This document shows positions 6,676 through 20,412 of a stretch of 32,676 bases of DNA, piece by piece. Source of the DNA: Elusimicrobiales bacterium (GTDB lineage Bacteria; Elusimicrobiota; Elusimicrobia; Elusimicrobiales; UBA9959); NCBI GenBank assembly GCA_023701245.1, contig JAMPXK010000025.1:1-32676 (forward strand), in the 5' to 3' direction. Every line of letters begins with the position of its first letter. Position 1 is the first letter of the stretch. The notes under the pieces are model-generated. The model ran no database searches. It worked only from the letters and a program-made list of their open reading frames with translations, and was not told the origin of the DNA. The translations under genes and the position numbers were made by a program.

Positions 6676-7923
6676 ATGAAGGTGAAAGTTTATTTCAAAA
6701 CCGTCGGATGCCGGGTCAACCAGGTGGAGACCGAGAGCCTGCGCGAGAAGTTCGCCTCCCTGGGCCACCAGGCCGCCGAGTCCCCCGAAGAGGCCGACCT
6801 GGTAGTGCTAAATACCTGTTCCGTCACCGCCAAGGCCGACAGGGACTGCCTGGCCTTCCTGCGCCGGACTGCCGCCGCCAACCCGGGGGCTTCCATCGCC
6901 GTGACCGGCTGCCTCGCCACGCTGGAGCCGGGCAAAATACTGGCAGCCGTCCCCGGCGCCGCGCTCTTCTCCAACAAGGACAAGGAAAGTATCCCGGCCG
7001 CCCTGTGCGGCACTCCGGCCGCCGCGGACTTTTTTTCGGTCACTAAATTCCAGGGCAAGGCCAGGGCTTTCATAAAAGTGCAGGACGGCTGCGACCTGAA
7101 ATGCGCCTACTGCCTGGTCAACATAGCCCGCAACGAACTCCGCTCCAAGCCCAGCGCCGCCGCCGTAGCGGAGATACGCGCGCTCGCCGCCGGCGGCTTC
7201 GCCGAAATAGTCCTCTGCGGCACGCGCCTGGGTATTTACAAATGCCCGGTCACCGGCACGGGCCTGGCCGGCCTGCTGGAGCGGGTCTTCGCCCTGCCGG
7301 GGGATTTCCGGGTCAGGTTCTCGTCCATAGAATCCCAGGAACTGACGCCGGAACTGCTGCGGGTACTTAAAGCCGCCGGCCCCAGGTTCTGCGACTATTT
7401 CCACCTGCCGCTGCAGGCCGGCGCCGACCCTGTGCTGAAGGCCATGGGCCGCCTTTACGGTACCGCCCGCTACAGGGACAAAGTGGAGGAACTGCGGTCC
7501 ATTTTCCCCGGCGTCGGCGTCTACGCGGACATCATCGCCGGCTATCCTTCCGAGACCGAAGAGGATTTCGCCGCCGCGCTGTCTTATGTGCGGGAACTGG
7601 GCCTGTCCGGCCTCCACGTCTTCAGCTTTTCCGCGCGGCCGGGCACCCGCGCCGCGGCCCTGAAAGCCCTGCCTCCGGGGACCGTAGCTGCCCGTTCCGC
7701 CTCCCTGCGGGCCCTGGACGCGCAGCTGCGCGCCGCCTTCGCGGCGTCCATGCTGGGACGGGAGACGCTGGCTTTGGTGCTCAGGAACAAGGACGGGCGG
7801 GCGCTGGCGCTGGCCTCCAATTTTGTAAATCTGGAAATAGCCGGACCGCAGAAGGCGGGCACCCTGCTGCGCTGCCGCATCACCGCGGCCAGGCAGGGCG
7901 TCTGCCTGGCCGAAAAACTATGA
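6676..7923 (+). CDS. mtaB: tRNA methylthiotransferase, MtaB family
   Basis: This radical-SAM enzyme family adds a methylthio group to t6A37 of tRNAs that decode ANN codons. The 415-residue product has the N-terminal cluster-binding domain with C12, C48 and C79 (TVGCRVNQVETE, NTCSVTAKAD, VTGCLA), the radical-SAM CxxxCxxC at C139/C143/C146, the HLPLQAGAD segment, and a C-terminal TRAM-like domain. The opening TVGCRVNQ favours MtaB over MiaB or RimO. After the radical-SAM cysteines it reads LVNIARNELRSKP where relatives usually have a PYARG-like stretch, so the subfamily call is good but not certain. AAAAGG lies about 10 bases before the ATG. Bacillus keeps mtaB (yqeV) just after rsmE. Confidence 0.88.
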   Translation: MKVKVYFKTVGCRVNQVETESLREKFASLGHQAAESPEEADLVVLNTCSVTAKADRDCLAFLRRTAAANPGASIAVTGCLATLEPGKILAAVPGAALFSNKDKESIPAALCGTPAAADFFSVTKFQGKARAFIKVQDGCDLKCAYCLVNIARNELRSKPSAAAVAEIRALAAGGFAEIVLCGTRLGIYKCPVTGTGLAGLLERVFALPGDFRVRFSSIESQELTPELLRVLKAAGPRFCDYFHLPLQAGADPVLKAMGRLYGTARYRDKVEELRSIFPGVGVYADIIAGYPSETEEDFAAALSYVRELGLSGLHVFSFSARPGTRAAALKALPPGTVAARSASLRALDAQLRAAFAASMLGRETLALVLRNKDGRALALASNFVNLEIAGPQKAGTLLRCRITAARQGVCLAEKL

Positions 7924-7931
7924 AAAACGCG

Positions 7932-7960
7932 TTAATATTCCCCGGACAACTTGCTATAAT
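7932..7960 (+). promoter_or_regulatory. Promoter of the 8007-13426 gene unit
   Basis: TTAATA at 7932-7937 and a perfect TATAAT at 7955-7960 are 17 bases apart, with TTGC just before the -10. The surrounding CAACTTGCTATAATTA is nearly identical to the sequence before xerC (CAACTTGCTAGAATTA). The leader would be about 40 bases and AT-rich, with another TATTAT near 7985. Confidence 0.6.
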
Positions 7961-8006
7961 TAAAAAGTAAATCGCGTATATATATTATACCGGGGGCGGC
8001 AACTTT

Positions 8007-9677
8007 ATGGATAACAAAGACGGGAAAAAGAAAGAGTCTATAGACGAAATACTCTCCGACCTTAACGGCCTCCTCAATAAGATGCCTTCCATCCTGGACG
8101 GGATCAAGATGCCGGAGATGAAGCCTGTAGAGTTCTCCGCCGCGCCCGAGGAGAAGAAGCCGGAACCCAAGACCCCGCAGCTGCCGCCGGACGCCGACAA
8201 GACGGTGGTGCTGGAGGCGTTCTCCGGCCTGCCGGAAGGCGCCGCCTCCCCCGAACCCGCTCCCGCCGCTGACTCCGCTGATAAAACGCTGATAATAGAG
8301 AATTTTTCTCCCGCGCCCGAAGGTGGGCAGCTCCCGGAGGAGGAAAAACTGGTCCCTCAGAGCCTCGGGGATTTCATGTTCGGGGAAGACGAACAGCTGT
8401 CGCCGGCCGCAGGGGCGGCCCCTGAAGCGGCAGCCGCCTCCAAGGAAGAACCGATCTCTCTTCCGGAGTTCCAGGCGCCGGAGCCGGAGGTCCGCCCGGC
8501 CGCAGTTTCGCAGGACGCCAGCCAGTTCGAAAGCACCAGGGACTTCGGCGGCATTCCGGACATAGACGCGCTGATACAGTTATCGGACGGGGGGGCGCCC
8601 AAGCCGGCCCCCGCGCCCGCGCCCGCAGCCGAAGCGCAGGCCCAGGCTCCGGCCGCGGCTCCGGAACCGTCCCTGGACGAACTCGCCGAGTTTGAAAAGC
8701 AGCTGGAAGCGGCGGCGCCGCGGGGAGAAGCGATGGACAGCAAGCCCGAAGAAGAGAAGCCGGAGGTTCAGCCCGCCCGGGAGCCCGAGCTGGTGATAGA
8801 ACCTTCCGCCAAACCCGGTCTGGATTTCGAGAGCCTTACCATAGAACCGGAAGGCCAGCCCGCCGCGGCCGAAGGGACGCCTGAACCCGAAGCGGCCGTT
8901 CCCGCGCAGGGGATAGAGCTGGAGCCGGCCATCCAGGCCGCCGCAGAACCGGCGGCGGAAGCCGCCGAAACCCTGCAGCTGGAACCCGCGCCCAAGTTCG
9001 GCGCTTCCCCTGCCGAGGCAGAAACCCTGCAGTTGGAGCCTTCCCTCGGCGCCGCGGCCCAGCCGCAGCCGGCGGCCGAAGGCCAGGAACAGACTTTAAC
9101 CGTAGGCCAGCCCGATAACGGGTTGGTCATGGAATCCGCCAGCGCCGGCCTTTCCGCCGCGGCCCAGCCTTCCGGCGACCAGACCCTGGTGGTCCCGCCT
9201 CCTTCGGGGGACGAGGATAAGACCGTGATCTTCGAGGCCGGGGCGGCTCCCGGGATAACCTCCCGTTCGCAGGCCGGGGACCTTGCGGGCCTGGCCGAAC
9301 GTTCCGTCCCCGAGGGCATACCGGCGGAACGCACGCGCGCCATTGCGTTCCTCTACGCCCCGGAAGACAAGGCCCTTTGCGCTACCGTGCTTTCGGAACT
9401 GGACGCTATCTGCCTTAAGTCCCCTCAGACCCCCATGTTCATCAAGCGGGCGTCCGTAAAGGAATGCGACCCGGAGGTGAACGCCAACTACGTGCTGCAG
9501 AGCGTTACCGACTCCGGAGCGCAGGGTATGGTCTGCGTGGGTTCCATACCCCAGGAGAAGATCTACGAAATGGAGAACGCCTTCACTTCTTCCGGCGGCT
9601 TCTTCCGTCACTACGACTCCGCCGCGTTCACGCATTCCGCCGCCCTTGACCTGGTGATGGACCTGATACTTCGGTAA
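8007..9677 (+). CDS. Acidic Ala/Pro/Glu-rich protein with repeated D/E-x-T-L/V motifs and an alpha/beta C-terminal domain
   Basis: I do not recognise a family for this 556-residue protein. Residues 1-40 look helical (SIDEILSDLNGLLNKM). Residues 41-435 are acidic, low-complexity and rich in Ala, Pro and Glu. Inside this region are recurring short motifs: DKTVVLE (64), DKTLIIE (92), ETLQLEP (321 and 339), QTLTV (362), QTLVV (392) and DKTVIFE (404), plus weaker forms such as SLTIEPE and GIELEPA. Residues 440-556 alternate hydrophobic strands and helices (RAIAFLYAPED, GAQGMVCVGSI, ALDLVMDLILR) and look like a folded alpha/beta domain. No signal peptide or membrane segment is visible, so it is probably cytoplasmic. 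It lies 5 bases before the DnaA-like gene and has its own promoter. A scaffold or phospho-docking role is inference. Confidence 0.85.
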   Translation: MDNKDGKKKESIDEILSDLNGLLNKMPSILDGIKMPEMKPVEFSAAPEEKKPEPKTPQLPPDADKTVVLEAFSGLPEGAASPEPAPAADSADKTLIIENFSPAPEGGQLPEEEKLVPQSLGDFMFGEDEQLSPAAGAAPEAAAASKEEPISLPEFQAPEPEVRPAAVSQDASQFESTRDFGGIPDIDALIQLSDGGAPKPAPAPAPAAEAQAQAPAAAPEPSLDELAEFEKQLEAAAPRGEAMDSKPEEEKPEVQPAREPELVIEPSAKPGLDFESLTIEPEGQPAAAEGTPEPEAAVPAQGIELEPAIQAAAEPAAEAAETLQLEPAPKFGASPAEAETLQLEPSLGAAAQPQPAAEGQEQTLTVGQPDNGLVMESASAGLSAAAQPSGDQTLVVPPPSGDEDKTVIFEAGAAPGITSRSQAGDLAGLAERSVPEGIPAERTRAIAFLYAPEDKALCATVLSELDAICLKSPQTPMFIKRASVKECDPEVNANYVLQSVTDSGAQGMVCVGSIPQEKIYEMENAFTSSGGFFRHYDSAAFTHSAALDLVMDLILR

Positions 9678-9682
9678 ACACT

Positions 9683-11494
9683 ATGATAAAAAAGTGGGAC
9701 GTGGCGCCGGCGCCTAACGAAAAGAATCCCGGCAGGCATAAACTGAGGATCAAAGGGGAGATGAAGGACATCTTCCTGATAGTCAAGAACCTCGGCAGCC
9801 TCTGTTCCCGCCCGGAGAAGACTTCCGGGGATTTCGATTTCATAATTTACCTGTCCAAGCTGGAAATGGACACGATGAAGAAGCTGAAGTCGGTGGCGGA
9901 GGAACTTAGTTCCCCGGCCGCGGTGGAAGCCGATTCTTTCGGGGACGAGCCGGCGCCTTTCGACGCGCCCAGGCCTAAACTCAAGACCGAGCCGCAGCCC
10001 GCGCCCAAGGCCCAGCCCCAGCAGGCCTCCGCCGCCCCGGCGGAGCAGCCCAGGCCGGCCCCCGCGCTTGGACCAGCGCCTGCTCCCGCACCCGCGCCTG
10101 CGCCGCAGCCCGCGCCCGCCCCTGCCCCGGAGCAGAGGCCTGCCATGTCCCCCGCGCCGCAGCAGCCGCCGCTTATCCCTTCCGCCCGGCCTTCAGACAT
10201 GGGGCTGCCGTCGCAGACCATGCGCAGGAAGGCGGAGCCGGTACCCGCCGCCGCTTCCCCGGCCGTCAGCACGCCCCAGCCTACCATCTCTTCCAGGATC
10301 AAGGCCAAGTGGTCCATGGAGCTGCCGCTGATCCCCACGTACAGTTTCCAGACCCTGATAGCCGGGTCCCACAACCGTTTCGCCCACGCCGCCGCCATGG
10401 CGGTGGTGGAAAACCCCGGGGTCATCTACAACCCGCTGCTGCTGTTCGGCGCTCCCGGCACCGGCAAGACGCATTTCGTCAACGCCATTTCCTACGGGCT
10501 GTCCGCGTCCATAGGCCAGAGCAATATCTTCGTTACCGACGGCATAAAGCTGTCCAAGGGGATAGAACTGGCCATCAAGGAAAATTCCATCTCGTGGCTG
10601 GAGGACCTGCTGGCCAAGGTCAAGGTCCTCATCATCGACGACGTCCACCTGCTGATGGTCTCCGACACCAACAAGAAGTACCTTTCCAAGTGGCTTAACG
10701 ACTTCGTGGCGCAGAACAAGCAGATCGTGGTCACTTCCGTGTTCCCGCCCAAGTCCCTCTCCGGCCTGGAGGACGCGGTGGGCTTCCAGTTCACCCAGGG
10801 CTGGATGGTGGACCTTAAGATGCCTAATGCCCAGGCCTATAAGTCCATAATCTCGCAGCTGCTCCAGGGGCTGGATATCAAACTTTCCGAAGAGGAGATC
10901 ACCAACATCTTCGCCGCCGGCCTGATGCCGTTCGGCGAGGCGGTAAAGTCCCTGGAGGACATGCGCAAGCTGGAGAAGTTCCTGGTGAATTCCTCCAATA
11001 ATCTGACCCATTCCCAACTGCTGGACATGCTGCTGGGCCTGAGCGAAGCGGCGGACCCTTCCCCGCTCTCCGACGACGAGGCCCGGTCGGCGTCGGCCTG
11101 GCAGCCGTCCGGCAAGGATGCCTGGTTCAAATGGGGCCTTTTCTATCCCAAGGGCATGCGCCGGGAAGCGGAGTTCGCCCTTTATTCCGTCAATCAGAGG
11201 GCCAAGGAACTGGGGCTCAATACCACCTGGAGCCAGGTGTTCACCGAAGAGTATAATTCGGACGAACTTTACGGGATCCCCTTCCATATCGGCAACGTGG
11301 CCACGGAGCGCGGCATCAACGGCGCCATCGTCCTGGGCCCTCAGCCTACTTCGGCGCTCGGCGCGCAGGAGGCGGAGTTCCGCCACATTACTTTCAAGAT
11401 ACTCGACAGTTTCCTGGTGAAGGGCGCCTGGCTGCCCATGGGCCGGCTCAAATCCAAGTCGGCCTACGCCAAGATACTCATGGACCTGGTGTGA
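9683..11494 (+). CDS. DnaA-like AAA+ ATPase without DNA-binding domain
   Basis: The 603-residue protein has an unrecognised N-terminal domain (1-75), a long Pro/Ala/Gln linker (about 80-205), a DnaA-type AAA+ domain (about 215-440) and an alpha/beta C-terminal domain (about 480-603). The AAA+ part is clearly DnaA-like: YSFQTLIAGSHNRFAHAAA, ENPGVIYNPLLLFG, Walker A GAPGTGKT at 256-263, Walker B VLIIDD at 315-320 and sensor 1 VVTS at 349-352. Where DnaA has its arginine-finger motif (RLxSRF) this protein reads AVGFQFTQG, with no Arg. The DnaA box-binding helix-turn-helix domain is absent and replaced. It is therefore not the replication initiator. It lies between the acidic protein and the histidine kinase with gaps of 5 and 3 bases. 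Function unknown; an ATP-dependent switch or scaffold is plausible. Confidence 0.88.
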   Translation: MIKKWDVAPAPNEKNPGRHKLRIKGEMKDIFLIVKNLGSLCSRPEKTSGDFDFIIYLSKLEMDTMKKLKSVAEELSSPAAVEADSFGDEPAPFDAPRPKLKTEPQPAPKAQPQQASAAPAEQPRPAPALGPAPAPAPAPAPQPAPAPAPEQRPAMSPAPQQPPLIPSARPSDMGLPSQTMRRKAEPVPAAASPAVSTPQPTISSRIKAKWSMELPLIPTYSFQTLIAGSHNRFAHAAAMAVVENPGVIYNPLLLFGAPGTGKTHFVNAISYGLSASIGQSNIFVTDGIKLSKGIELAIKENSISWLEDLLAKVKVLIIDDVHLLMVSDTNKKYLSKWLNDFVAQNKQIVVTSVFPPKSLSGLEDAVGFQFTQGWMVDLKMPNAQAYKSIISQLLQGLDIKLSEEEITNIFAAGLMPFGEAVKSLEDMRKLEKFLVNSSNNLTHSQLLDMLLGLSEAADPSPLSDDEARSASAWQPSGKDAWFKWGLFYPKGMRREAEFALYSVNQRAKELGLNTTWSQVFTEEYNSDELYGIPFHIGNVATERGINGAIVLGPQPTSALGAQEAEFRHITFKILDSFLVKGAWLPMGRLKSKSAYAKILMDLV

Positions 11495-11497
11495 AGA

Positions 11498-13426
11498 ATG
11501 CTTAACGAATTGATAGGGGCCGGCGCCCTGGGCGCCGCTGGCGCCTTCGGCGCTTACTGGTACCTGAAGTTCAGGTCCGTGCTGCCCATTGAGACCCGCC
11601 TGCGCGCCGCGCAGCGTGCCTTTACGGATTTTACGGCCTTCACCAGGGAGACCATGGAACGGGCCTACGCCCCGGAGCAGCCGGAGCATTACGGCGATAT
11701 CACCAACTACTACCTCATAAAACTCCACAAGGTTTTCCCGGACAGTTCCATGCTGGTCTTCGAAAAAGGGCCGGGGCAGTGGAAACTGGTCAACTACCTG
11801 AAGCATTTCAAGGTGGAACCCAAGCTGCTGACGGCCTACAAGTGGAGCGCCTTCGACCGCAGTTCTTCCGAGGGGGAACTGCTGCGGTTCGACGATTTCA
11901 AGGCCGGGGATTACCAGGGCGTGGAGGAACTTTTCTCCGTTTTCGATATCAGGTCCGTGCTGATGTGTCCTTTCCGCCCGGCGGGCGGGGCGGCGGAACG
12001 CCTGGTGGTCTTCGGGGCGCCAACCCCGGCCTCCTTCGACTCGGCGCAGCCTTACCTGCGCTTCGTGACGTCCCAACTGTCCTCCATCTCCAAGGTTTCC
12101 GACAAGGTCTTCACGCTCAGGAAGGAGACGGAGCATTTGAAGAGCGAGGTCAGCGCCGTGGTCAAGGAACTGGACGTGGCGGGATCGCGCCTGATACAGC
12201 GGGCCCGCGAACGCAAGGCCCTTTACGAAGTGGTCACCAAGGCCGCCGGGCCCGGCCAGGACGCCCAGAACGGCTGTTCCGCCATTCTCAATATAGTCGC
12301 CAAGATGGTGGAGGCCGATGTGGTGGCCTGCCTGCTCTTCGACGAGGCCAAGGGAGAGCTGGTGGTCAGCCCCGGCTCCTACGGCATTCCGGATTCCGAG
12401 CGGATGTGCTACAGCATCCCCGTCAGCAACCATTCTTCCGCCTCCGTGCGCACTTTCCTCAGCCGCAAGCCGTTCATCACGGCCGACGCGCAGAACGACC
12501 CGGACGTGCTGGCCCGCTACGCCAAGCTCTGGGAGATCCATTCCCTGATGATCGTGCCCATCTCCCTTCACGACCGCATCATAGGCGTCATGCGGGTGGG
12601 CAGCCGGCGCAAGGACTTCTTCACCCCGGACCAGCTGGAGTTCCTCTCCATCATAGCCGACGAACTGGCCATCATCATAGAGATGTTCACCCTCTACGAG
12701 AACCTTTCCCGGACCGCGCAGGAACTGGCCCAGCTCAACAAGATAAAGGACGAGTTCCTCTCCACGGTCAGCCATGAGCTCAAGACGCCGCTTACCACCA
12801 TAAAGGGGTTCGTCTCGGTCATCCTGAGCGGAGAAGTGGGCCCCCTTAACGAACAGCAGACCAATTTCCTCACGGTCACGGACCAGTCCGTGAACCGCCT
12901 GACCCACCTCATCTCCAACCTCCTGGACCTTTCCCGGCTTAACGGCAAAGTGGAGATGGAGTTCCACCGGGTGGACCTCGGGGAGCTTGTGCGGTCTTCC
13001 GTTTCCACCATGCTCCTGAAGGCCAGGGAAAGCAACGTGACCTTGTCCAACGCCGTTTCAAAGAACCTGCCGCACGTAAAGGCGGACACCCGCTGGATAG
13101 GCCAGGTCATAGACAACCTCCTCATCAACGCCATCAAATATTCCGGCGCCGGCGCCAAGGTTAACGTTGTGGGGACCGATAAGGGCGAGGCCGTGGTGAT
13201 CTGCGTGGAGGATAACGGCCCGGGCATCCCGCCCGAAGAGCAGAAGCGCGTTTTCGATAAATTCTACCGCGGCAAAGCCAGCGCTACCCAGGTCCCGGGC
13301 ACCGGCCTGGGGCTGGCTATTTCCAAGTCGGTGGTTGAAAAGCACGGCGGCAAGATCTGGGTGGAGTCCAAGCCCGGGCACGGGGCAAAATTCTTTTTCG
13401 CGCTGCCGGTAGCTAAGACTAACTAG
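11498..13426 (+). CDS. GAF-domain sensor histidine kinase
   Basis: The 642-residue protein has one hydrophobic N-terminal segment (about 5-25), a degenerate GAF-like region (about 60-200), a coiled-coil stretch (200-240), a clear GAF domain (about 240-400), the HisKA dimerisation domain with phospho-acceptor H426 (STVSHELKTPL), and a HATPase domain with the N box (DNLLINAIKYS), G1 (DNGPGIP), F box (VFDKFYRG) and G2 (GTGLGLAI). All catalytic motifs look intact. The single N-terminal segment may anchor it to the membrane with both sensory regions in the cytoplasm. No response regulator is adjacent in the operon; the single-domain regulator at 5650-6099 is a possible partner. It begins 3 bases after the DnaA-like gene. 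Confidence 0.94.
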   Translation: MLNELIGAGALGAAGAFGAYWYLKFRSVLPIETRLRAAQRAFTDFTAFTRETMERAYAPEQPEHYGDITNYYLIKLHKVFPDSSMLVFEKGPGQWKLVNYLKHFKVEPKLLTAYKWSAFDRSSSEGELLRFDDFKAGDYQGVEELFSVFDIRSVLMCPFRPAGGAAERLVVFGAPTPASFDSAQPYLRFVTSQLSSISKVSDKVFTLRKETEHLKSEVSAVVKELDVAGSRLIQRARERKALYEVVTKAAGPGQDAQNGCSAILNIVAKMVEADVVACLLFDEAKGELVVSPGSYGIPDSERMCYSIPVSNHSSASVRTFLSRKPFITADAQNDPDVLARYAKLWEIHSLMIVPISLHDRIIGVMRVGSRRKDFFTPDQLEFLSIIADELAIIIEMFTLYENLSRTAQELAQLNKIKDEFLSTVSHELKTPLTTIKGFVSVILSGEVGPLNEQQTNFLTVTDQSVNRLTHLISNLLDLSRLNGKVEMEFHRVDLGELVRSSVSTMLLKARESNVTLSNAVSKNLPHVKADTRWIGQVIDNLLINAIKYSGAGAKVNVVGTDKGEAVVICVEDNGPGIPPEEQKRVFDKFYRGKASATQVPGTGLGLAISKSVVEKHGGKIWVESKPGHGAKFFFALPVAKTN

Positions 13427-13448
13427 GGCCGCGTCGGCCCCGGGGGAT

Positions 13449-14555
13449 ATGATGAAACCTTTCGTTGCGACCATTCTGGCGTCTTGCGCGTTCCTGCTCG
13501 GGGCCTGTTCCCACGCTCCCGTTCCCGGGTCCTCCAAGGCCCCGCCCGCCCAGCTTTCCGCGGACGGGTCCGCTCCTTTTAACGAAAAAGACCTGGCGGC
13601 TTCCCGCGCGGCGGCCGTGCTGGACGCGCAGCGCAGCGCGGTAAGCCGTGCCGCCGTTCTTTACCTGGACGAGGAGACCCGCGCGGAGAAGTCCTCCGTG
13701 CTGGAGAACTACCTGCTGAAGACCCCCCAGCATTACGTGGCGAAGTATAAGATCGTTTCCGAGGGCCAGGACGGGGCTTTCTACCGGGTGCGGCTCAAGG
13801 CCTGGGTGTACAACGGGCGCATAGCTTCCGAACTGCGCGCCTTGAAACTTTCAGGCGTTTCCGCGGCCGCGCCCAGGGCGGCTTTCGTTCTGCGGGGCGC
13901 GCCGGCTCCGGCTTTCGTTTCCGCTTTCCGCGAGACTTTTGTCCGGCGGTCGGCCGCGGTCATAGAGGACTTTCCTTTCGCCGCCGACGCGGCGCTGGCG
14001 GCAGGACCCGAGGAGAAACTGCTGGAAGCCGCCGCGGTTTCCGGCGCCGACCTTCTCATCTCCGCTTCGGCTTCCGCCGCCGCGGCCGGCGCGGGCCTCA
14101 ATACCGGGTTCTATCCTTCCCGGGCCGACGCCTCCGTCAGGCTTTATGACGCCGTTTCCGGCAAACTGCTGCTGGACTTTTCCGGGCAGGGCAGCGGCAT
14201 AGATTCCACCGAGGCCGGCTCTTTCTCCAAGTCCCTGGCCTCGGCCGGGGAACTGCTGGCGCAGGAGGCGGCGGTAAGGGCCGCCCGGGCCTTCAAGCCC
14301 GAGACCCCGCTGCGGATAAAGTTTTACGGCCTGGAAGGGCTGGAGATAGTGGAGACGCTGCGCGCCCAGCTGCTCAGGCTGGACGCCAGGGGCGTGCGCC
14401 TGGACAGTTTCGACTCGGGGACGGCCGTGTTCCTTGCCGTGCCCCGCAAGCCGGACCCGCAGGAATTCGCCAGTTCCGTGCTGCGCGGCGACGCCCTGGG
14501 CCTGGAAATGGAAGGTACCAGCCCGCAGGAAATAGCCTTTTCCCTGCCGAGGTAA
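13449..14555 (+). CDS. Putative lipoprotein with FlgT/LPP20-like N-terminal domain
   Basis: The 368-residue product opens with a signal peptide ending in the lipobox LGAC (C20), so it is very likely a lipoprotein; a second ATG follows immediately at 13452. A GGGGGA ribosome site precedes the start. Residues about 45-135 show the pattern of FlgT/LPP20-type domains: Ala-rich helix with DAQRSAVSRAAVLYL, then YLLKTPQHYVAKYKIVSEGQDGAFYRVRLKAWVYNG across a line break of motifs. The remaining 230 residues are Ala-rich with no domain that I recognise; residues 230-300 look like a second alpha/beta unit. It starts 22 bases after the kinase gene and 6 bases before the next lipoprotein, so it may be part of either unit. 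Confidence 0.75.
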   Translation: MMKPFVATILASCAFLLGACSHAPVPGSSKAPPAQLSADGSAPFNEKDLAASRAAAVLDAQRSAVSRAAVLYLDEETRAEKSSVLENYLLKTPQHYVAKYKIVSEGQDGAFYRVRLKAWVYNGRIASELRALKLSGVSAAAPRAAFVLRGAPAPAFVSAFRETFVRRSAAVIEDFPFAADAALAAGPEEKLLEAAAVSGADLLISASASAAAAGAGLNTGFYPSRADASVRLYDAVSGKLLLDFSGQGSGIDSTEAGSFSKSLASAGELLAQEAAVRAARAFKPETPLRIKFYGLEGLEIVETLRAQLLRLDARGVRLDSFDSGTAVFLAVPRKPDPQEFASSVLRGDALGLEMEGTSPQEIAFSLPR

Positions 14556-14561
14556 AACTTT

Positions 14562-15170
14562 ATGCCGTTCGCCCGCCGCCTGATCCTGCCCGCCTGCCTG
14601 GCCGCCGCCTGCGCCGGCAAGGCCGCGTACCTGGTGGCGCCGTCCCTGCGAACCGCGGCGGACCCCCGGGTGGCCGTGCTGCCCTTCGACAACCAGAGCA
14701 CCGACGTGGGGGCGGCCGACGTGATGCGCAAGCTGGCCCAGGAGAATTTCGGCCGGCGGGGGTATCCGCCACTGCCCGCGGAAGAAGTCGACGCCAAACT
14801 TTCCGGCCTGGGGATCTCCGAGGGCGGGCAGCTGCCCGGCGTGAAGCCGGCCGACCTGGGCAAGGCCCTCGGCGCGGACCTGCTCTGCTACGGGGACGTT
14901 GAGGATTTCACGTTCCAGAACCTGGGTTTCGTGATACGCAAGTCCGTGGGCCTGAAGATAAAACTGGTGTCGGCCGCCACCGGGGAAACTCTTTACGAGG
15001 GTTCCGGTTCCGGCAAGGACGTGAAATTTTTCATGAACAAGGACGAGGCCCGGGCGGCTTTCGTGGAACAGATGGCGGTTAAGCTGGTGCAGAACATCCT
15101 TAAGACGCCCCTGAAGAAAGAGGCGGAGGCTGCCGCCTGGAAGGCGCTGGACGGCCTGCCCCGCAGGTGA
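14562..15170 (+). CDS. Putative lipoprotein, GNA1162/DUF799-like
   Basis: The 202-residue product has a short signal sequence with possible lipidation at C17 (or C12), so export and anchoring are likely but the exact site is unclear. The mature part resembles the GNA1162/DUF799 lipoproteins, which adopt a TolB- or CsgG-like alpha/beta fold: RVAVLPFDNQSTD at the first strand, GYPPLPAEEVDAKL, GADLLCYGDVEDF and KLVSAATGETLYEGSG. In other bacteria members of this family sit beside CsgG-like lipoproteins, and here a CsgG gene is next, 29 bases downstream. Envelope-associated; specific role unknown. Confidence 0.72.
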   Translation: MPFARRLILPACLAAACAGKAAYLVAPSLRTAADPRVAVLPFDNQSTDVGAADVMRKLAQENFGRRGYPPLPAEEVDAKLSGLGISEGGQLPGVKPADLGKALGADLLCYGDVEDFTFQNLGFVIRKSVGLKIKLVSAATGETLYEGSGSGKDVKFFMNKDEARAAFVEQMAVKLVQNILKTPLKKEAEAAAWKALDGLPRR

Positions 15171-15199
15171 AGATTCGGTAACTATAACGGAGGAAGAAC

Positions 15200-16135
15200 A
15201 TGCATAAACTAAAATTCATAGCCGCGGCCGCTTTGCTGGCCGCCGCCTGCGCGCCGGCCAAGTCCGTAAAACAGCAGCAGGCGCTCAGCGTGGACAAAAC
15301 CGAAAAAGTGGAGTCCAAATATACCGGGCCCAAGCGCCGCATAGGCGTGGTGGAGTTCGAGAATAAATCCGCTTACGGGCAGGGCCGCCTGGGCGGGGCC
15401 GCTTCCGATATCCTGGTGACCGAACTGGTAAAATCCGGCAAGTTCATAGTGGTGGAACGCGACCGCCTTAACAAGGTGATGGAAGAACAGAAGTTCCAGT
15501 CCCAGGGCATGACGGATTCCCAGACGGCGGTGAAGATAGGCCAGGTGATGGGCCTGGAAGCCATTGTGGTGGGGTCCGTGTCCCAGTTCGGCGTGAAAAA
15601 AGAAGGCTCCGATTACCTGCTTACCCAGTCCAAGCGCCAGGTGGCCGACGTGACGGTGGATATCCGCCTGATAGACGTGCAGAGCGGCCAGGTGATACTG
15701 GCCGATTCCGGCAAGGGCATGGCCAAGAATACCAAGGCCTCTTTCCTGGGCATGGGCACCAAGGGCGGCTACGACGAAACCCTTGAGGGCGAGGCCCTGC
15801 GCGCCGCGCTGGTGCAGTTCGTCACCAATATCGCCAGCCAGCTCAATAAGAAGCCCTGGTCCTGCATGATAGCGGCCGCCGCCAACGACCAGCTTTACCT
15901 CAACGCCGGTTCCGACTCCGGCGTCAACGAAGGGATGGACCTGGATTGCTACCGCCAGGGCGCGGAAATACGCGACCCCCGGTCCAACCTGGTGATAGGC
16001 CGCGTGGAAGAGTACCTGGGCCGCGCCGAGGTGGAAGGGCCCTGCGGCGATTCCGGCGACTGCGCCAAGGCGCGGATCACCAAGTCTTCCGGCGGTTCTC
16101 CCAAGTCCGGCGACATCTGCCGCCTGGCGAAGTAA
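15200..16135 (+). CDS. CsgG-family putative lipoprotein with FlgT-like C-terminal domain
   Basis: The 311-residue product has a signal sequence with a likely lipidated C17 (LAAAC), then a CsgG/HfaB domain (about 47-215): RIGVVEFENKSAYGQGR, ILVTELVKSGKFIVVERDRLNKVMEEQ, KIGQVMGLEAIVVGSVS and DIRLIDVQSGQVI. CsgG itself forms the outer-membrane secretion pore for curli; related proteins serve other envelope tasks. The C-terminal 85 residues (LYLNAGSDSGVNEGM, SNLVIGRVEEYLGRAEV, GDICRL) resemble the C-terminal domain of FlgT-type proteins and include several cysteines. GGAGG precedes the start. No csgA, csgB, csgE or csgF genes are nearby, so curli export is not supported. Confidence 0.85.
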   Translation: MHKLKFIAAAALLAAACAPAKSVKQQQALSVDKTEKVESKYTGPKRRIGVVEFENKSAYGQGRLGGAASDILVTELVKSGKFIVVERDRLNKVMEEQKFQSQGMTDSQTAVKIGQVMGLEAIVVGSVSQFGVKKEGSDYLLTQSKRQVADVTVDIRLIDVQSGQVILADSGKGMAKNTKASFLGMGTKGGYDETLEGEALRAALVQFVTNIASQLNKKPWSCMIAAAANDQLYLNAGSDSGVNEGMDLDCYRQGAEIRDPRSNLVIGRVEEYLGRAEVEGPCGDSGDCAKARITKSSGGSPKSGDICRLAK

Positions 16136-16145
16136 GAGGTTCTCT

Positions 16146-16187
16146 GGCCGCGCCGGGAAGGCGCGGCCGCTCCCGGCGGGCCCGGGA
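16146..16187 (+). other. Tandem hairpins between the CsgG gene and comM
   Basis: GGCCGCGCC (16146-16154) pairs perfectly with GGCGCGGCC (16160-16168) around GGGAA. A second hairpin, TCCCGG (16171-16176) with CCGGGA (16182-16187), follows at once. Neither has a T-tract. They may reduce read-through or protect the mRNA 3' end of the lipoprotein genes. Confidence 0.55.
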
Positions 16188-16195
16188 ACGGATTT

Positions 16196-17731
16196 ATGCT
16201 GTCGAAACTGCGCACATTATGCCTTAAGGGCATAGACGGCCGCGAGGTCCTCGCCGAGGTGTATATCGCCCCCGGCCTGCCGGCCTATACCGTGGTGGGC
16301 CTTCCCGACGCCGCCGTCAAGGAGGCCAAGGACAGGGTAGTGGCCGCTGTGCGCAATTCCGGCTACGATTTTCCCTCCAAACGCATTACCGTCAACCTGG
16401 CGCCCGCTGAAATAAGAAAAGCCGGGACGCATTTCGACCTGCCTATAGCCCTGGGGGTCCTGGCCGCCGGTGGCGGGTTCGGCAAGAAGCCTCCCGCCGC
16501 GCTGGGGGATACTTTCTTTATAGGCGAACTGGCCCTGGACGGGGCGCTGCGGCCCGTGGCAGGTGTGCTGCCCATGCTCCTGGCCCTCAAAGGCTCGGGC
16601 GCGCGGGCGGTGGTGCCGGCCGGCAACGAGGCCGAAGCCGCAGTTTCCGGAGTTCCCTGCCTGGCCGCGACCAGCCTCAAAGAGGCGGCCGACTGGCTGG
16701 CCGGGAAAGCGGAACTGAAGCCCTGCGAGGGCGCCGCCCAGGCCGCCGCGGGCCCACTGGCGGCGCACGACCTCTGCGACGTAAAAGGCCAGGCCTTCGC
16801 CAAGCGGGCGCTTGAAATAGCCGCGGCCGGCTTTCACAACCTTATCATGGTGGGCCCTCCCGGCGCGGGCAAGAGCATGCTGGCCCGGAGGTTCTCCACC
16901 CTGCTGCCCAGGATGACCTTCGACGAATCCCTGGAGACCACCAAACTTTATTCCGTCAGCGGGCTGGTGCGGGCTGGCCGCCTGGTCCATGAGCGGCCTT
17001 TCCGCGAGCCGCACCATACCATTTCGGACGCGGCTCTTATCGGCGGCGGTTCCACGCCCCGGCCCGGGGAAGTGTCGCTGGCGCATAACGGCGTACTGTT
17101 CCTCGACGAGTTCCCTGAATTTTCCCGGCCGGCCATAGAGGCCCTGCGGGAGCCGCTGGAAGCCTGGAGGGTGACGGTCTCCCGCGTAAAGGAAAGCGTC
17201 TGTTACCCGGCCCGTTTCATGCTGCTGGCGGCCATGAATCCCTGTCCCTGCGGTTACCTGGGGCACCCGTCCAGGGAGTGTTCCTGCACGCCGGTGCAGG
17301 TGCACAGGTACCGGGCCAAGATCTCCGGCCCCATCCTGGACCGCATAGACCTGCATGTGCAGCTTTCGGCCGTAAAGTACGCGGATTGGGAAGCCCTGCC
17401 CAAGGGCGAGCGTTCCTCCGACGTGGCCGGGCGCGTGGCCGCGGCCATGGAACTGCAGCGCCGGCGTTTCGGTTCAGGCGCCCGCGCCAACGCTTTTATG
17501 TCGGGGGCGGAACTGCGCAAACACTGCGCCCTGCCGGGCGGGGCCTCGGCGGTGCTGGAGACCGCCATGAACAAACTCGGTTTTTCGGCCCGCTCGCTCG
17601 ACAAGATCCTCAAGATCTCCAGGACCATAGCGGACCTGGAAGGGTCCGAGGCCATAAAGCGGGAGCACGTTACCGAAGCGGTGCAGTACAGGATGCTGGA
17701 TAAGGCGGCGGAACTGCCCGCCGTGATATGA
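16196..17731 (+). CDS. comM: ComM/YifB family AAA+ ATPase (Mg-chelatase-like)
   Basis: ComM is a hexameric helicase that promotes branch migration when incoming DNA is integrated during natural transformation. The 511-residue length is normal. It opens with the YifB N-terminal domain (AEVYIAPGLPAYTVVGLPDAAVKE, NLAPAEIRKAGTHFDLPIALG), has Walker A GPPGAGKSM from residue 220, Walker B VLFLDEFPEF, the typical AAMNPCPCGYLG segment with the Cys-rich ECSCTP, and an ending with SARSLDKILKISRTIADLEG. Its position just upstream of dprA (with one gene between) fits a DNA-uptake or recombination role. No good Shine-Dalgarno is seen directly before the ATG. Confidence 0.95.
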   Translation: MLSKLRTLCLKGIDGREVLAEVYIAPGLPAYTVVGLPDAAVKEAKDRVVAAVRNSGYDFPSKRITVNLAPAEIRKAGTHFDLPIALGVLAAGGGFGKKPPAALGDTFFIGELALDGALRPVAGVLPMLLALKGSGARAVVPAGNEAEAAVSGVPCLAATSLKEAADWLAGKAELKPCEGAAQAAAGPLAAHDLCDVKGQAFAKRALEIAAAGFHNLIMVGPPGAGKSMLARRFSTLLPRMTFDESLETTKLYSVSGLVRAGRLVHERPFREPHHTISDAALIGGGSTPRPGEVSLAHNGVLFLDEFPEFSRPAIEALREPLEAWRVTVSRVKESVCYPARFMLLAAMNPCPCGYLGHPSRECSCTPVQVHRYRAKISGPILDRIDLHVQLSAVKYADWEALPKGERSSDVAGRVAAAMELQRRRFGSGARANAFMSGAELRKHCALPGGASAVLETAMNKLGFSARSLDKILKISRTIADLEGSEAIKREHVTEAVQYRMLDKAAELPAVI

Positions 17732-17747
17732 GAGAACGGAGGATTAC

Positions 17748-19256
17748 ATGGGAAAGTTAGTTTTAGCCGCCGGATTTATGTTCATGGCCGCCCTGGCCTC
17801 GGCCCAGCAGGTCAAACTGCTGGATGACCTCGCGTCCGAATCCTCGGGCACGCAGGCCTCTCAGCCGGGGGAGGATCCGCAGATCATCATGCCCTCCGAG
17901 GACAAACCCGCCGCGGAAGTTAAACCGGAGGAAGTTAAAAAACCCGACGTTCCCAAGAAAGCGCCCCCTGCCGCCAAAAAAACCGTCAAGAAAACCGCGC
18001 CCAAGCCCGTCGCCGTAAAACCGGCTGCCCCGGCGGTGCCTGCCGCCGCGCCGGTCCCCGCCGCCGCGCCCAAGCCTGCGGAGCAGCCTAAGCCGGCCAG
18101 CCCCGTTGCCCCTGCCGCCGCCAAGCCCGCGGTCCAGGAAAAGCCTGCGGCTGTTGTTAAGCCGGCCGTCGCTAAACCCGCCGCGCCCGCCGCCGCCAAG
18201 CCGGCGCCCGCCGTTGCCCCCGCCGTTGAAACCAAAAAGACCGGTGAAAGCATGCCCAGAGTTCCGGCCCAGCCGCCGGCCGCCCCGGAGGTCCCGGTTA
18301 AAGCGGCCGTCGCTAAACCCGCCGCCTCCAAGTCCGCCGCGGTCCAGGCTCTGCCTGTTGCCCCGGCCGCCCCGGCCGCGCCGCCTTCGCCCAAAGTCTA
18401 CTCCGAACCATTAGGGCAATCCAGGCCCGCCGGCGCTCCCGTGCCGGCGGTCAAGCCGGCGCAGCAGGCCCGCGTGGAACCTTTGCCCCAGCCCGTGCCC
18501 GGCGCCGGGTTCGCCGTAGTCAAGACACATACGGTTACCGGCGGGGACACGCTCTGGGACCTTTCCTCCAGGTATTACAGCGACCCTTTCAAATGGGGCC
18601 GTATCTACAACGCCAACCTGGGCGTTGTCGCCAACCCGGACCGGATTTATCCAAAGAACGAACTGGTGATCCCCGACATAACCGAAGAGGTCCGCCCCGA
18701 GGTCAAGCAGCCCATTGTCATAACCGGGGGGGAGACGGTAAAAGAGGCCGAGCTCCTGAGCGCCGACGTGGAGCAGCCGCAGGAAGAGCCCGCCCAGGTC
18801 AACGAGGCTCCGCCGGTCGTGCCCGTGTTCAAGCCCGCTTCGGCCCAGTTGCAGGAAGCCCTGGACGCTTACGACCGCGCCGATCTTTCCGACGAAATGC
18901 CTAAACACCAGAAAGAGTGGGCCTCCGGGATAAAGATAGTGCCGCAGGACTGGCGCGAAGACGGCGTCATTACCGGCAAGGAAGTCGGCCGCGACGAGAG
19001 CATGGAAGACAGCCTCTCCATGTCGGGCGCCATGGTGAGCGTGGACATGGAGGACGAAGGCGCCAGGCCCGGAGACTATCTGGCTGTTTACCTGAAAGGC
19101 TCCACGGCTTACGACAAGTCCGGGAAAAAACTCGGCCTGGAAGTGCAGCGCGCCGGGACCCTGCAGGTAGTGAGCGCCGACGGGGCCGAGGTGCGGGCGC
19201 GCGTGATAAGCGCCGTTACGGCGATCTCCAAAGGGTACGTGGTCAAGAAGAAGTGA
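17748..19256 (+). CDS. Exported LysM-domain protein with long Ala/Pro/Lys linker
   Basis: The 502-residue product has an N-terminal signal peptide (about 1-20, ending ALASAQ), a basic Ala/Pro/Lys-rich linker (about 35-255), one LysM domain (about 262-312: TVTGGDTLWDLSSRYY, ...NPDRIYPKNELVIP) that should bind peptidoglycan, a second acidic linker, and a C-terminal domain (about 405-500) with GKEVGRDESMEDSL and GDYLAVY. The linker is long enough to span the periplasm. The C-terminal region resembles domains found after LysM in proteins of similar layout, but I cannot name it. GGAGG precedes the ATG by 7 bases. It lies between comM and dprA, so an envelope role linked to this operon is possible but unproven. 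Confidence 0.88.
   Translation: MGKLVLAAGFMFMAALASAQQVKLLDDLASESSGTQASQPGEDPQIIMPSEDKPAAEVKPEEVKKPDVPKKAPPAAKKTVKKTAPKPVAVKPAAPAVPAAAPVPAAAPKPAEQPKPASPVAPAAAKPAVQEKPAAVVKPAVAKPAAPAAAKPAPAVAPAVETKKTGESMPRVPAQPPAAPEVPVKAAVAKPAASKSAAVQALPVAPAAPAAPPSPKVYSEPLGQSRPAGAPVPAVKPAQQARVEPLPQPVPGAGFAVVKTHTVTGGDTLWDLSSRYYSDPFKWGRIYNANLGVVANPDRIYPKNELVIPDITEEVRPEVKQPIVITGGETVKEAELLSADVEQPQEEPAQVNEAPPVVPVFKPASAQLQEALDAYDRADLSDEMPKHQKEWASGIKIVPQDWREDGVITGKEVGRDESMEDSLSMSGAMVSVDMEDEGARPGDYLAVYLKGSTAYDKSGKKLGLEVQRAGTLQVVSADGAEVRARVISAVTAISKGYVVKKK
18163..18325 (+). repeat. 22-bp direct repeat within the LysM-gene linker
   Basis: The same 22 bases, beginning CGGCCGTCGCTAAACCCG, occur at 18163-18184 and 18304-18325. 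They are 141 bases apart, so the copies share a reading frame (47 codons) and both encode AVAKPAA. This points to internal duplication or recombination in the Ala/Pro/Lys linker. Confidence 0.8.
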
Positions 19257-19281
19257 ACTCCTGGTTTTGACGGGGGGGGAT

Positions 19282-20412
19282 ATGGGGGAAGGGACCGCTG
19301 CAGAGAAACTGGCGCGGGTACGCCTTAATTTCTTCGCCTGTTACAGGTGCGACTGGCTGCTGCGCCTGCTGGACCTTTACGGCGGGGCCGCGCCCCTGCT
19401 GAAGCGGCCGCCCCGGGAAATAGCGGCCGAGGGCGGCGTAATGCTGGAAACCGCCCAGCGTCTGGCGGCGCAGACAACCGCCTGCGACCCGGAGAAGGAA
19501 CTGCTGGCCGCGCAGAAAGCCGGCATCAAAGTCCTTACGGCCCTCGACGAGGGTTATCCCGAACTCCTGAAAAAGATCTACGATCCACCCATGGTGCTCT
19601 ATGTGCGCGGGGAATTGAGCCCGCGCCCGGCGGCCGGGATAGTAGGTACGCGCAAGGCTACGCCCTACGGCCTGCGCACCGCGGCGCGCCTGGCGGCTGA
19701 ACTGGCCGGTGCCGGCGTGGCGGTGGCCAGCGGGCTGGCGCGCGGCATAGATACGGCGGCGCATAAGGCGGCGGTAGAGGCCGGGGGCGTAACCTGGGCC
19801 GCGCTGGGCACCGGCCTCAATATGACCTACCCGGAGGAGAACGCTCGCCTGGCCGACAGGATAGTCGAGGCCGGCGGCGCCCTGGTCTCGGAATTCCCGC
19901 TCGATTCTGGTCCCTTGCCTCAAAATTTCCCGAGGCGCAACAGGATCATCTCCGGCCTGTCCCTGGCCACCGTGGTGGTGGAGGGCGGTTTCGAATCAGG
20001 CGCCATGATAACCGGGCGCTTCGCGCTGGACCAGGGGCGGGAGGTGCTGGCCGTGCCCGGCCCGGTGGACTCCCCTGTCAGCAAGGGGCCTAACTTTTTC
20101 ATCAAGAACGGCGCGTATCCCGCGGAGAACGGGGCGGATATCGTCGCCTGCTTCCCTCCGGAATACCTGTTCGGGCTGAAGGCCTGCGGCACAGGCGGCG
20201 TGAAGAGCCCGGCAGAGGCCGTCCTGCGCGGACTTTCCCCGGACGGCCTGGCGGCGTTCAAGGCGATAGCGGCGAACGAGGGCGGGCTGAGCGCGGACGA
20301 GGTTACCGTGGCGCTGGGCTGGCCGGTGCAGCGGGCGGCGGCGGCCCTGTTCGAACTGGAAGCCTCGGCGGCGGTGATGAGCCGCGGCGGCCGCTATTGC
20401 CCCGCGGTATAA
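19282..20412 (+). CDS. dprA: DNA-processing protein DprA (Smf)
   Basis: DprA binds incoming single-stranded DNA and loads RecA during transformation. From the ATG at 19282, chosen because a G-rich ribosome site lies at 19272-19280, the product has 376 residues. An N-terminal helical region precedes the Rossmann-like core: GIVGTRKATPYGLRTA, VASGLARGIDTAAH, ALGTGLNMTYPEEN, FPRRNRIISGLS and VVEGGFESGAMIT, all standard for the family. A C-terminal winged-helix (about 310-376) completes the usual architecture. It lies between the LysM gene and topA, the dprA-topA order being widely conserved. A hairpin follows the stop codon. Confidence 0.96.
   Translation: MGEGTAAEKLARVRLNFFACYRCDWLLRLLDLYGGAAPLLKRPPREIAAEGGVMLETAQRLAAQTTACDPEKELLAAQKAGIKVLTALDEGYPELLKKIYDPPMVLYVRGELSPRPAAGIVGTRKATPYGLRTAARLAAELAGAGVAVASGLARGIDTAAHKAAVEAGGVTWAALGTGLNMTYPEENARLADRIVEAGGALVSEFPLDSGPLPQNFPRRNRIISGLSLATVVVEGGFESGAMITGRFALDQGREVLAVPGPVDSPVSKGPNFFIKNGAYPAENGADIVACFPPEYLFGLKACGTGGVKSPAEAVLRGLSPDGLAAFKAIAANEGGLSADEVTVALGWPVQRAAAALFELEASAAVMSRGGRYCPAV

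Follow-up and report, generated by a model that had tools for sequence, protein, structure and literature searches.

What might an acidic protein, a relative of the replication initiator DnaA, and a sensor histidine kinase do together in one compact row of genes? The locus that raises this question lies in a stretch of 32,676 nucleotides, here called the window, which is one entire contig (JAMPXK010000025.1) of a 2.5-Mb metagenome-assembled genome (MAG) from the phylum Elusimicrobiota that is 92.8% complete. Three open reading frames (ORFs) of the plus strand, on which all window features given below also lie, are labeled A for the acidic protein (positions 8007 to 9677, 556 amino acids [aa]), B for the DnaA-like protein (9683 to 11494, 603 aa), and C for the kinase (11498 to 13426, 642 aa). 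They are separated by 5 and 3 bases, exactly as stated in an earlier note made on this DNA. We put at about 45% the probability that A, B, and C constitute a vertically inherited module in which a sensor kinase and an AAA+ switch act on type IV pilus retraction.

The three genes are not a chance neighborhood. Their co-occurrence was scored in a named collection of 41 loci, taken from records titled Elusimicrobia, Elusimicrobiales, Elusimicrobiota, Elusimicrobium, or plain "bacterium," and in a phylum sample of 198 genomes, whose families carry labels such as f1 (the window's own family) and f2. A database scan with the window's B reaches close relatives only. In the named collection, A ended no more than 300 bases before B in all 40 loci with enough room, and C started no more than 125 bases after B in all 39; across the 41 loci, most of the A-B and B-C gaps were shorter than 20 bases or were overlaps. 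B was found in 31 of 32 genomes of the window's genus, the exception (G016, 79% complete) yielding a DnaA-like match only. Throughout the phylum sample, 112 of the 198 genomes matched B at an E value of ≤1e-25. Three of them (G088, G094, and G200, with 454-aa frames in f10) were taken as true DnaA by length and family and were subtracted, and G111, whose B was found in its stretch, was added, giving 110 B-bearing genomes. Gene neighborhoods were compared in 60 stretches, 57 of which contained B, with f2 represented by 5 of its 52 B-bearing genomes. Within these neighborhoods A was labeled at a low threshold of 12 bits, and two small candidates located after B (G205 and G213) are doubtful. A kinase followed B in 32 of the 50 loci with downstream room, distributed over nine families (f1, 9/10; f7, 8/11; f11, 8/8; f16, 2/2; and f8, f9, f14, f21, and f22, 1/1 each). 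The co-occurrence that the earlier note proposed as a check is thus strong in the window's own family and extends, for B and the kinase, to nine families. One MAG, SKS1.bin104, contained two different A-B-C copies (L049 and L064), by duplication or contamination. Outside the phylum, one C-terminal domain was compared with plasmids and gave no match, which is no test of absence elsewhere.

B was described earlier as an AAA+ protein derived from DnaA, and the comparisons uphold this description. Pfam matched B to AAA+ families only, the best being Bac_DnaA (PF00308; E value of 3e-30), and all five matches at an E value of ≤0.001 among sequences of solved structures were DnaA. When 28 B cores and 20 DnaA cores from the phylum were placed in one tree, B formed one side of a branch with support of 97/75 that was present in 96% of bootstrap trees; its value of 75 in the approximate likelihood ratio test (SH-aLRT) lies below the usual limit of 80, and the tree contains long branches. 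B would best be read as a DnaA paralogue of single origin. Within the tree, the B proteins of f1 fall together with those of f2, f7, and f8 in a fast-evolving group (100/100). The DNA-binding domain is missing from B, as the earlier note had recognized. Pfam detected no DnaA domain IV in B, and in 20 of 20 genomes domain IV (PF08299) occurred once, in a separate gene with a frame of 449 to 476 aa and never at B, so true DnaA is encoded elsewhere. B therefore differs from DnaA (TIGR00362; PF00308 plus PF08299) in the lack of domain IV, in its new N- and C-terminal domains, and in a locus apart from that of true DnaA, whereas the AAA+ core is a clear likeness. The B of an f16 locus (L090:6988-8835) scored 361.8 bits without having domain IV. 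This exceeds the NCBI DnaA cutoff of 343.9, so automatic annotation would name it a (second) DnaA.

The AAA+ core of the window's B is of the DnaA type (Pfam stretch, residues 218 to 376; positions 10334 to 10810). Its Walker A motif, GAPGTGKTH (10448 to 10474), and its Walker B motif, VLIIDDVH (10625 to 10648), are intact, and both motifs were preserved in all 28 aligned B proteins. Box VII, which reads EDAVGFQFTQGW in the window (10769 to 10804), is degenerate and, aligned against 20 DnaA sequences and 27 further B proteins, shows loss of the arginine finger; the region of sensor II and box VIII (10925 to 10981) is degenerate as well. The loss of the arginine finger reported in the earlier note is real and confined to one clade. 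Both the arginine finger box and the sensor II box were lost in 12 of 12 B proteins of f1, f2, f7, and f8, whereas they were intact in all 16 from other families, a further likeness of these to DnaA. Single arginine residues of L088 and L074 that align at these places stand within degenerate boxes.

Across the phylum, B consists of an N-terminal domain (N-domain) of ~80 residues, the AAA+ core, and a C-terminal domain (C-domain) of ~125 residues, joined by variable linkers; the N-domain is absent from L091, L095, and L098. In the window's B, neither terminal part had a Pfam match. There, the N-domain (9683 to 9919; 49-row alignment) is predicted by AlphaFold2 (AF2) to be a small alpha/beta fold with a predicted local distance difference test (pLDDT) score of 89 and no close structural relative. 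An ACT-like nature of the N-domain was considered and dropped. PDB sequence matches started at an E value of 0.35, with several near 1 (ACT-bearing hydroxylases), and the best Foldseek E value was 0.03; because these matches are weak, no family is claimed. The C-domain (11087 to 11491; 54-row alignment) takes the place of DnaA domain IV and is predicted to be an alternating beta-alpha fold with a pLDDT score of 91. Its profile matched no PDB sequence up to an E value of 10. A likeness to the Argonaute MID domain, seen by eye, was not sustained: Foldseek returned generic neighbors, namely, lumazine synthases, MID/PIWI, Cnx1G, and others, at template modeling (TM) scores of ~0.45 to 0.62. Since none was favored, the predicted fold is described as Rossmann-like only. 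In f2, which comprises genomes of 1.2 to 2.3 Mb, four of the five loci examined encoded a B of ~1,100 to 1,620 aa whose N-terminal part is long and acidic (e.g., L080:6789-10082), as if the linker of A had been fused to B.

The origin of A is revealed by its C-terminal end. A is rich in Pro, Ala, and Glu, with 99 acidic and 37 basic residues among its 556, and it had no match in Pfam, NCBIfam, or PADLOC at the limits used. The earlier note suspected that A and B share a C-terminal fold, and profile comparison by hhalign supports this. The C-domain of A in the window's family (9297 to 9674 in the window) aligned to that of other A proteins with a probability of 97.5 (E value of 5e-12), the other A proteins aligned to the C-domain of B at 98.2 (6e-14), and the direct comparison between the window's family and B gave 87.0 (4e-6). 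The negative control, a comparison with the unrelated N-domain, gave 0.1 (E value of 0.44). A proteins of f11 bear the N-domain too, without AAA+, and are sometimes encoded by two A genes in tandem. Given this N-domain and the shared C-domain, A resembles a B without the AAA+ core. Sequence homology thus identifies A as a paralogue of B that lacks the core and, in the window, also a recognizable N-domain.

C is a GAF sensor histidine kinase, with GAF at residues 260 to 395, HisKA at 417 to 482, and HATPase_c at 530 to 639 (Pfam). Its catalytic boxes are all present (H-box SHELKTPL and the N, G1, and G2 boxes), as in the catalytic part of PnpS/WalK/PhoR-like kinases. It differs from known GAF sensor histidine kinases in being tied to B in gene order, with no response regulator seen beside it, and in scoring below the cutoffs of all 25 NCBIfam kinase models listed, of 91 matched. 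The earlier note called this kinase membrane anchored. The kinase assignment stood; the anchor is weak, as the N terminus has a single Gly/Ala-rich segment and the highest hydropathy over 19 residues is 1.26. The long kinase of another lineage (L090) appears by eye to be transmembrane. When C was used as a query in 16 genomes, the top match was the kinase beside B in every one of the 12 genomes with a kinase at that place; among the remaining four, three gave ≤183 bits and one gave nothing at an E value of ≤1e-45. The kinase beside B is one lineage, because unrelated kinases landing there would not yield 12 top matches out of 12.

A possible target of the module is suggested by the genes on its other side. 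Outside f1 and f2, 41 B loci were available, of which 38 were resolvable, having over 1.5 kb of upstream sequence, and 30 of these, from 12 families, carried a PilT gene beside A or B. In 29 of 33 clustered ORFs, PilT preceded B by one to three genes. It is a bona fide member of the PilT/PilU retraction ATPases, scoring 436 bits against the TIGR01420 cutoff of 319.1, and its closest solved chains are PilT. In a tree, the PilT proteins beside B were split from other PilT paralogues by a branch with support of 99/100, which held without one row (L173) that proved to be a wrong reading frame; they form one distinct lineage. PilT at an E value of ≤1e-90 was present in 110 of 110 B-bearing genomes, and B was found in none of the 71 PilT-free genomes. 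The window's genome has two PilT proteins at this threshold. Neither belongs to the lineage found beside B; the first is encoded in a PilB-PilT-PilC cluster, and the second next to FtsA-FtsZ. The latter directly follows ftsA and ftsZ (L141:3116-6619). Just before PilB, a 758-aa Pro/Ala-rich protein (L140:236-2512) is encoded that had no Pfam match and whose N terminus looks GYF-like by eye.

We infer the link to the pilus from this gene order and co-occurrence and propose the following mechanism. B derives from DnaA, most simply by a single event, having retained the AAA+ core, lost domain IV, and gained the N-domain and the Rossmann-like C-domain. A is its paralogue, which would carry the C-domain, plus the N-domain in some lineages, on a disordered, motif-bearing linker. 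C, as the constant partner of B wherever the kinase is present, would use its GAF domain to sense a ligand in the cytoplasm. It would either set the state of an A/B assembly that has bound ATP or be gated by that assembly, whose ATP state would control type IV pilus retraction. The ancestral target may have been the PilT paralogue encoded beside A and B; in the window's family, where that PilT is absent, the remaining pilus motors may be acted upon instead, perhaps for DNA uptake. Hydrolysis of ATP between subunits could take place in the B of other lineages. That of the window's clade should bind ATP and hydrolyze it slowly, because the arginine finger and sensor II are lost, and it may act as a slow or locked switch or as a scaffold. 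More tentatively, a DnaA duplicate may, early in the history of Elusimicrobiota, have been reshaped to regulate type IV pilus retraction in an ATP-dependent manner, partnered by a kinase and a PilT of its own and by the core-less A, with one clade converting it to a hydrolysis-poor switch, losing that PilT, and taking on other pilus or DNA-uptake motors.

Several observations weigh against a pilus module. The A-B-C trio is not universal in the phylum: no kinase stood beside B in 18 of the 50 resolvable loci, among them all those of f2 (five), f12 (one), f15 (one), f17 (four), f18 (two), and f19 (one), and in all five f2 loci examined B was also without a separate A alongside. PilT was missing from the locus in f1 (0/10 resolvable) and f2 (0/5) and in eight resolvable loci elsewhere (five in f7 and one each in f12, f14, and f21); at these loci, B must therefore function in the absence of that PilT. 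The same PilT occurred without B in the examined stretches of f6 (2/2), and 17 genomes had PilT with no B found. As the PilT-free genomes listed (20 of the 71) all belong to f10 or f4, the co-occurrence of PilT and B reflects few independent events. TIM, RpiB, and DeoC are conserved nearby in 12, 12, and 9 families, respectively, at widely varying distances, and regional synteny is therefore partly unrelated to B. ComEC, finally, was present in 169 of the 198 genomes. Since it is widespread also in genomes without B, B is no marker of DNA uptake as such, and DNA uptake was rejected as its specific role.

Synteny of this kind would accommodate an ordinary two-component unit with an AAA+ adaptor for gene regulation and no pilus role, PilT being there by inherited gene order. 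The catalytic boxes of the kinase, the conservation of housekeeping genes in the same region, and the retention of B without PilT at the locus in f1 and f2 all fit such a unit. We nevertheless consider it unlikely: PilT keeps a position close to B, whereas TIM, RpiB, and DeoC are found at very different distances; PilT is present in all sampled genomes that bear B; no response regulator was found among 20 window proteins scanned with Pfam, a scan that was not complete for the window; and Pfam revealed no DNA-binding domain in A or B. The same ancestry that links B to DnaA could also point to replication. Hda is a DnaA-derived regulator without a DNA-binding domain, and B might be a similar regulator of replication initiation, its AAA+ core meeting DnaA or the replisome and the kinase coupling growth signals to replication. 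The DnaA-type core, the finger and sensor II boxes intact in 16 B proteins, and the DnaA-level score of the older-type B from L090 would be in keeping with this. The Hda model (TIGR03420) gave that protein 107.4 bits and the window's B only 31.5, both below its cutoff of 194.8. B also has extra domains, and its gene company is different, 30 of 38 loci pairing it with PilT and not with replication genes. Together with the loss of the arginine finger box in the window's clade and the absence of domain IV, which is itself a likeness to Hda, this makes a replication regulator rather improbable. Finally, the three genes could be neighbors whose tasks are separate and that have no function in common, as would suit a region that is syntenic for unrelated genes too and in which the kinase, A, and PilT are each absent from some families. 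The overlaps or few-base gaps seen at most of the 41 loci, the tandem arrangement of two paralogues, and one kinase lineage that accompanies B in nine families render this very unlikely. An anti-phage defense system was also considered and rejected, as PADLOC gave only weak partial AAA+/kinase matches, the best at 37 bits.

The linker of A carries short motifs, and the description of A in the earlier note as acidic and motif rich was borne out. Near the N terminus, a helix-like motif, ESIDEILSDLNGLLNKMPSILDGIKMPE (8034 to 8117), is conserved among the f1 A proteins that were compared. Further downstream (8196 to 9236), the pattern [DE]-x-T-hydrophobic occurs five times, at 8196, 8280, 9087, 9177, and 9216; none of 1,000 shuffles reached five, for a pattern that was picked after inspecting the window sequence. 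Among 19 A proteins, 18 had at least one such motif, and in 16 the count was reached by none of 1,000 shuffles; the exceptions were L045 (reached by 6), L052 (by 19), and L073 (no motif). Ten f1 A proteins, from genomes that partly overlap this set, had nine motifs versus 0.25 expected. A single FHA gene is present in the window's genome. It shares a contig with two of the three genes for Ser/Thr kinases and lies no more than ~5.5 kb from them; these genes are located elsewhere in the genome (L162 and L166), not in the window. FHA was present in 16 of 17 f1 genomes versus 0 of 52 f2 genomes of the sample, and the single f1 genome that lacks it (G192) encodes a short A in which the repeats are absent by eye. 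The motif was not found in A of f7 and f11, though many of the sampled genomes of these families have FHA. A may be a phosphothreonine scaffold for FHA, a lead only, against which f7 and f11 speak.

According to the earlier note, A, B, and C form a three-gene unit behind one promoter. A promoter-like site of the extended -10 type does precede A (7932 to 7960; 10 of 12 consensus matches, with TG ahead of the -10 element), a consensus match that is not evidence of function; the same scan gave 5 sites in the region from 7700 to 19300, versus a mean of 1.4 in shuffles. The unit itself is real and incomplete. Co-oriented genes follow C at spacings of 22, 6, 29, 60, 16, and 10 bases, and the scan listing contained no plus-strand terminator-like site between C and the next gene, D. 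Transcription therefore probably continues past 13426, which would make A-B-C the start of a longer operon. D, for which Pfam gave no family, the GNA1162-like E, and F (CsgG), which together span 13449 to 16135, are probably cotranscribed with it, and their order is preserved in many f1 loci. They are followed by a ComM/YifB-like Mg-chelatase-type ATPase (16196 to 17731), a LysM protein identified by Pfam, and DprA (DNA_processg_A; 19267 to 20412). The f1 row thus reads A-B-kinase-D-E-F-ComM-LysM-DprA. In f2 it is B-D-ComM-DprA-TopA, and in f7 it can read PilT-A-B-kinase-ComM-DprA-TopA (G140). ComM came after B in this order in 21 of 29 loci (f1, 8/11; f2, 5/5; and f7, 8/13), several stretches ending too early. 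ComM and DprA function in natural transformation. With regard to co-occurrence and anatomy, the earlier interpretation stood; the PilT that many lineages add, the paralogy of A and B, the finger-bearing B proteins, and the downstream genes had been overlooked.

PilT itself is well known, and no description of a DnaA-type partner was found in the portions of the literature covered. Open-access papers included none that joins a DnaA-like protein, type IV pili, a histidine kinase, and PilT, subscription papers being largely outside this scope. The titles and opening abstract lines retrieved for Elusimicrobia with PilT or DnaA, for DnaA paralogues with twitching, and for PilT with a kinase or AAA+ described no module of this kind. 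Neither PMC11656802 nor PMC6668835, one of them a review concerned with a PilB cofactor, contains the word DnaA in its main text.

If the proposed module is real, a replication-initiator AAA+ fold would have been recruited to run a surface motor, for which no prior report was found. Some genes named "DnaA" in Elusimicrobiota genomes are likely misnamed, as one older-type B passes the NCBI cutoff for DnaA. For the little-studied Elusimicrobiota, the module would provide a testable system of pilus control, and the series from a finger-bearing B beside PilT to a finger-less B without PilT would represent a natural experiment in the conversion of an AAA+ machine to a switch.

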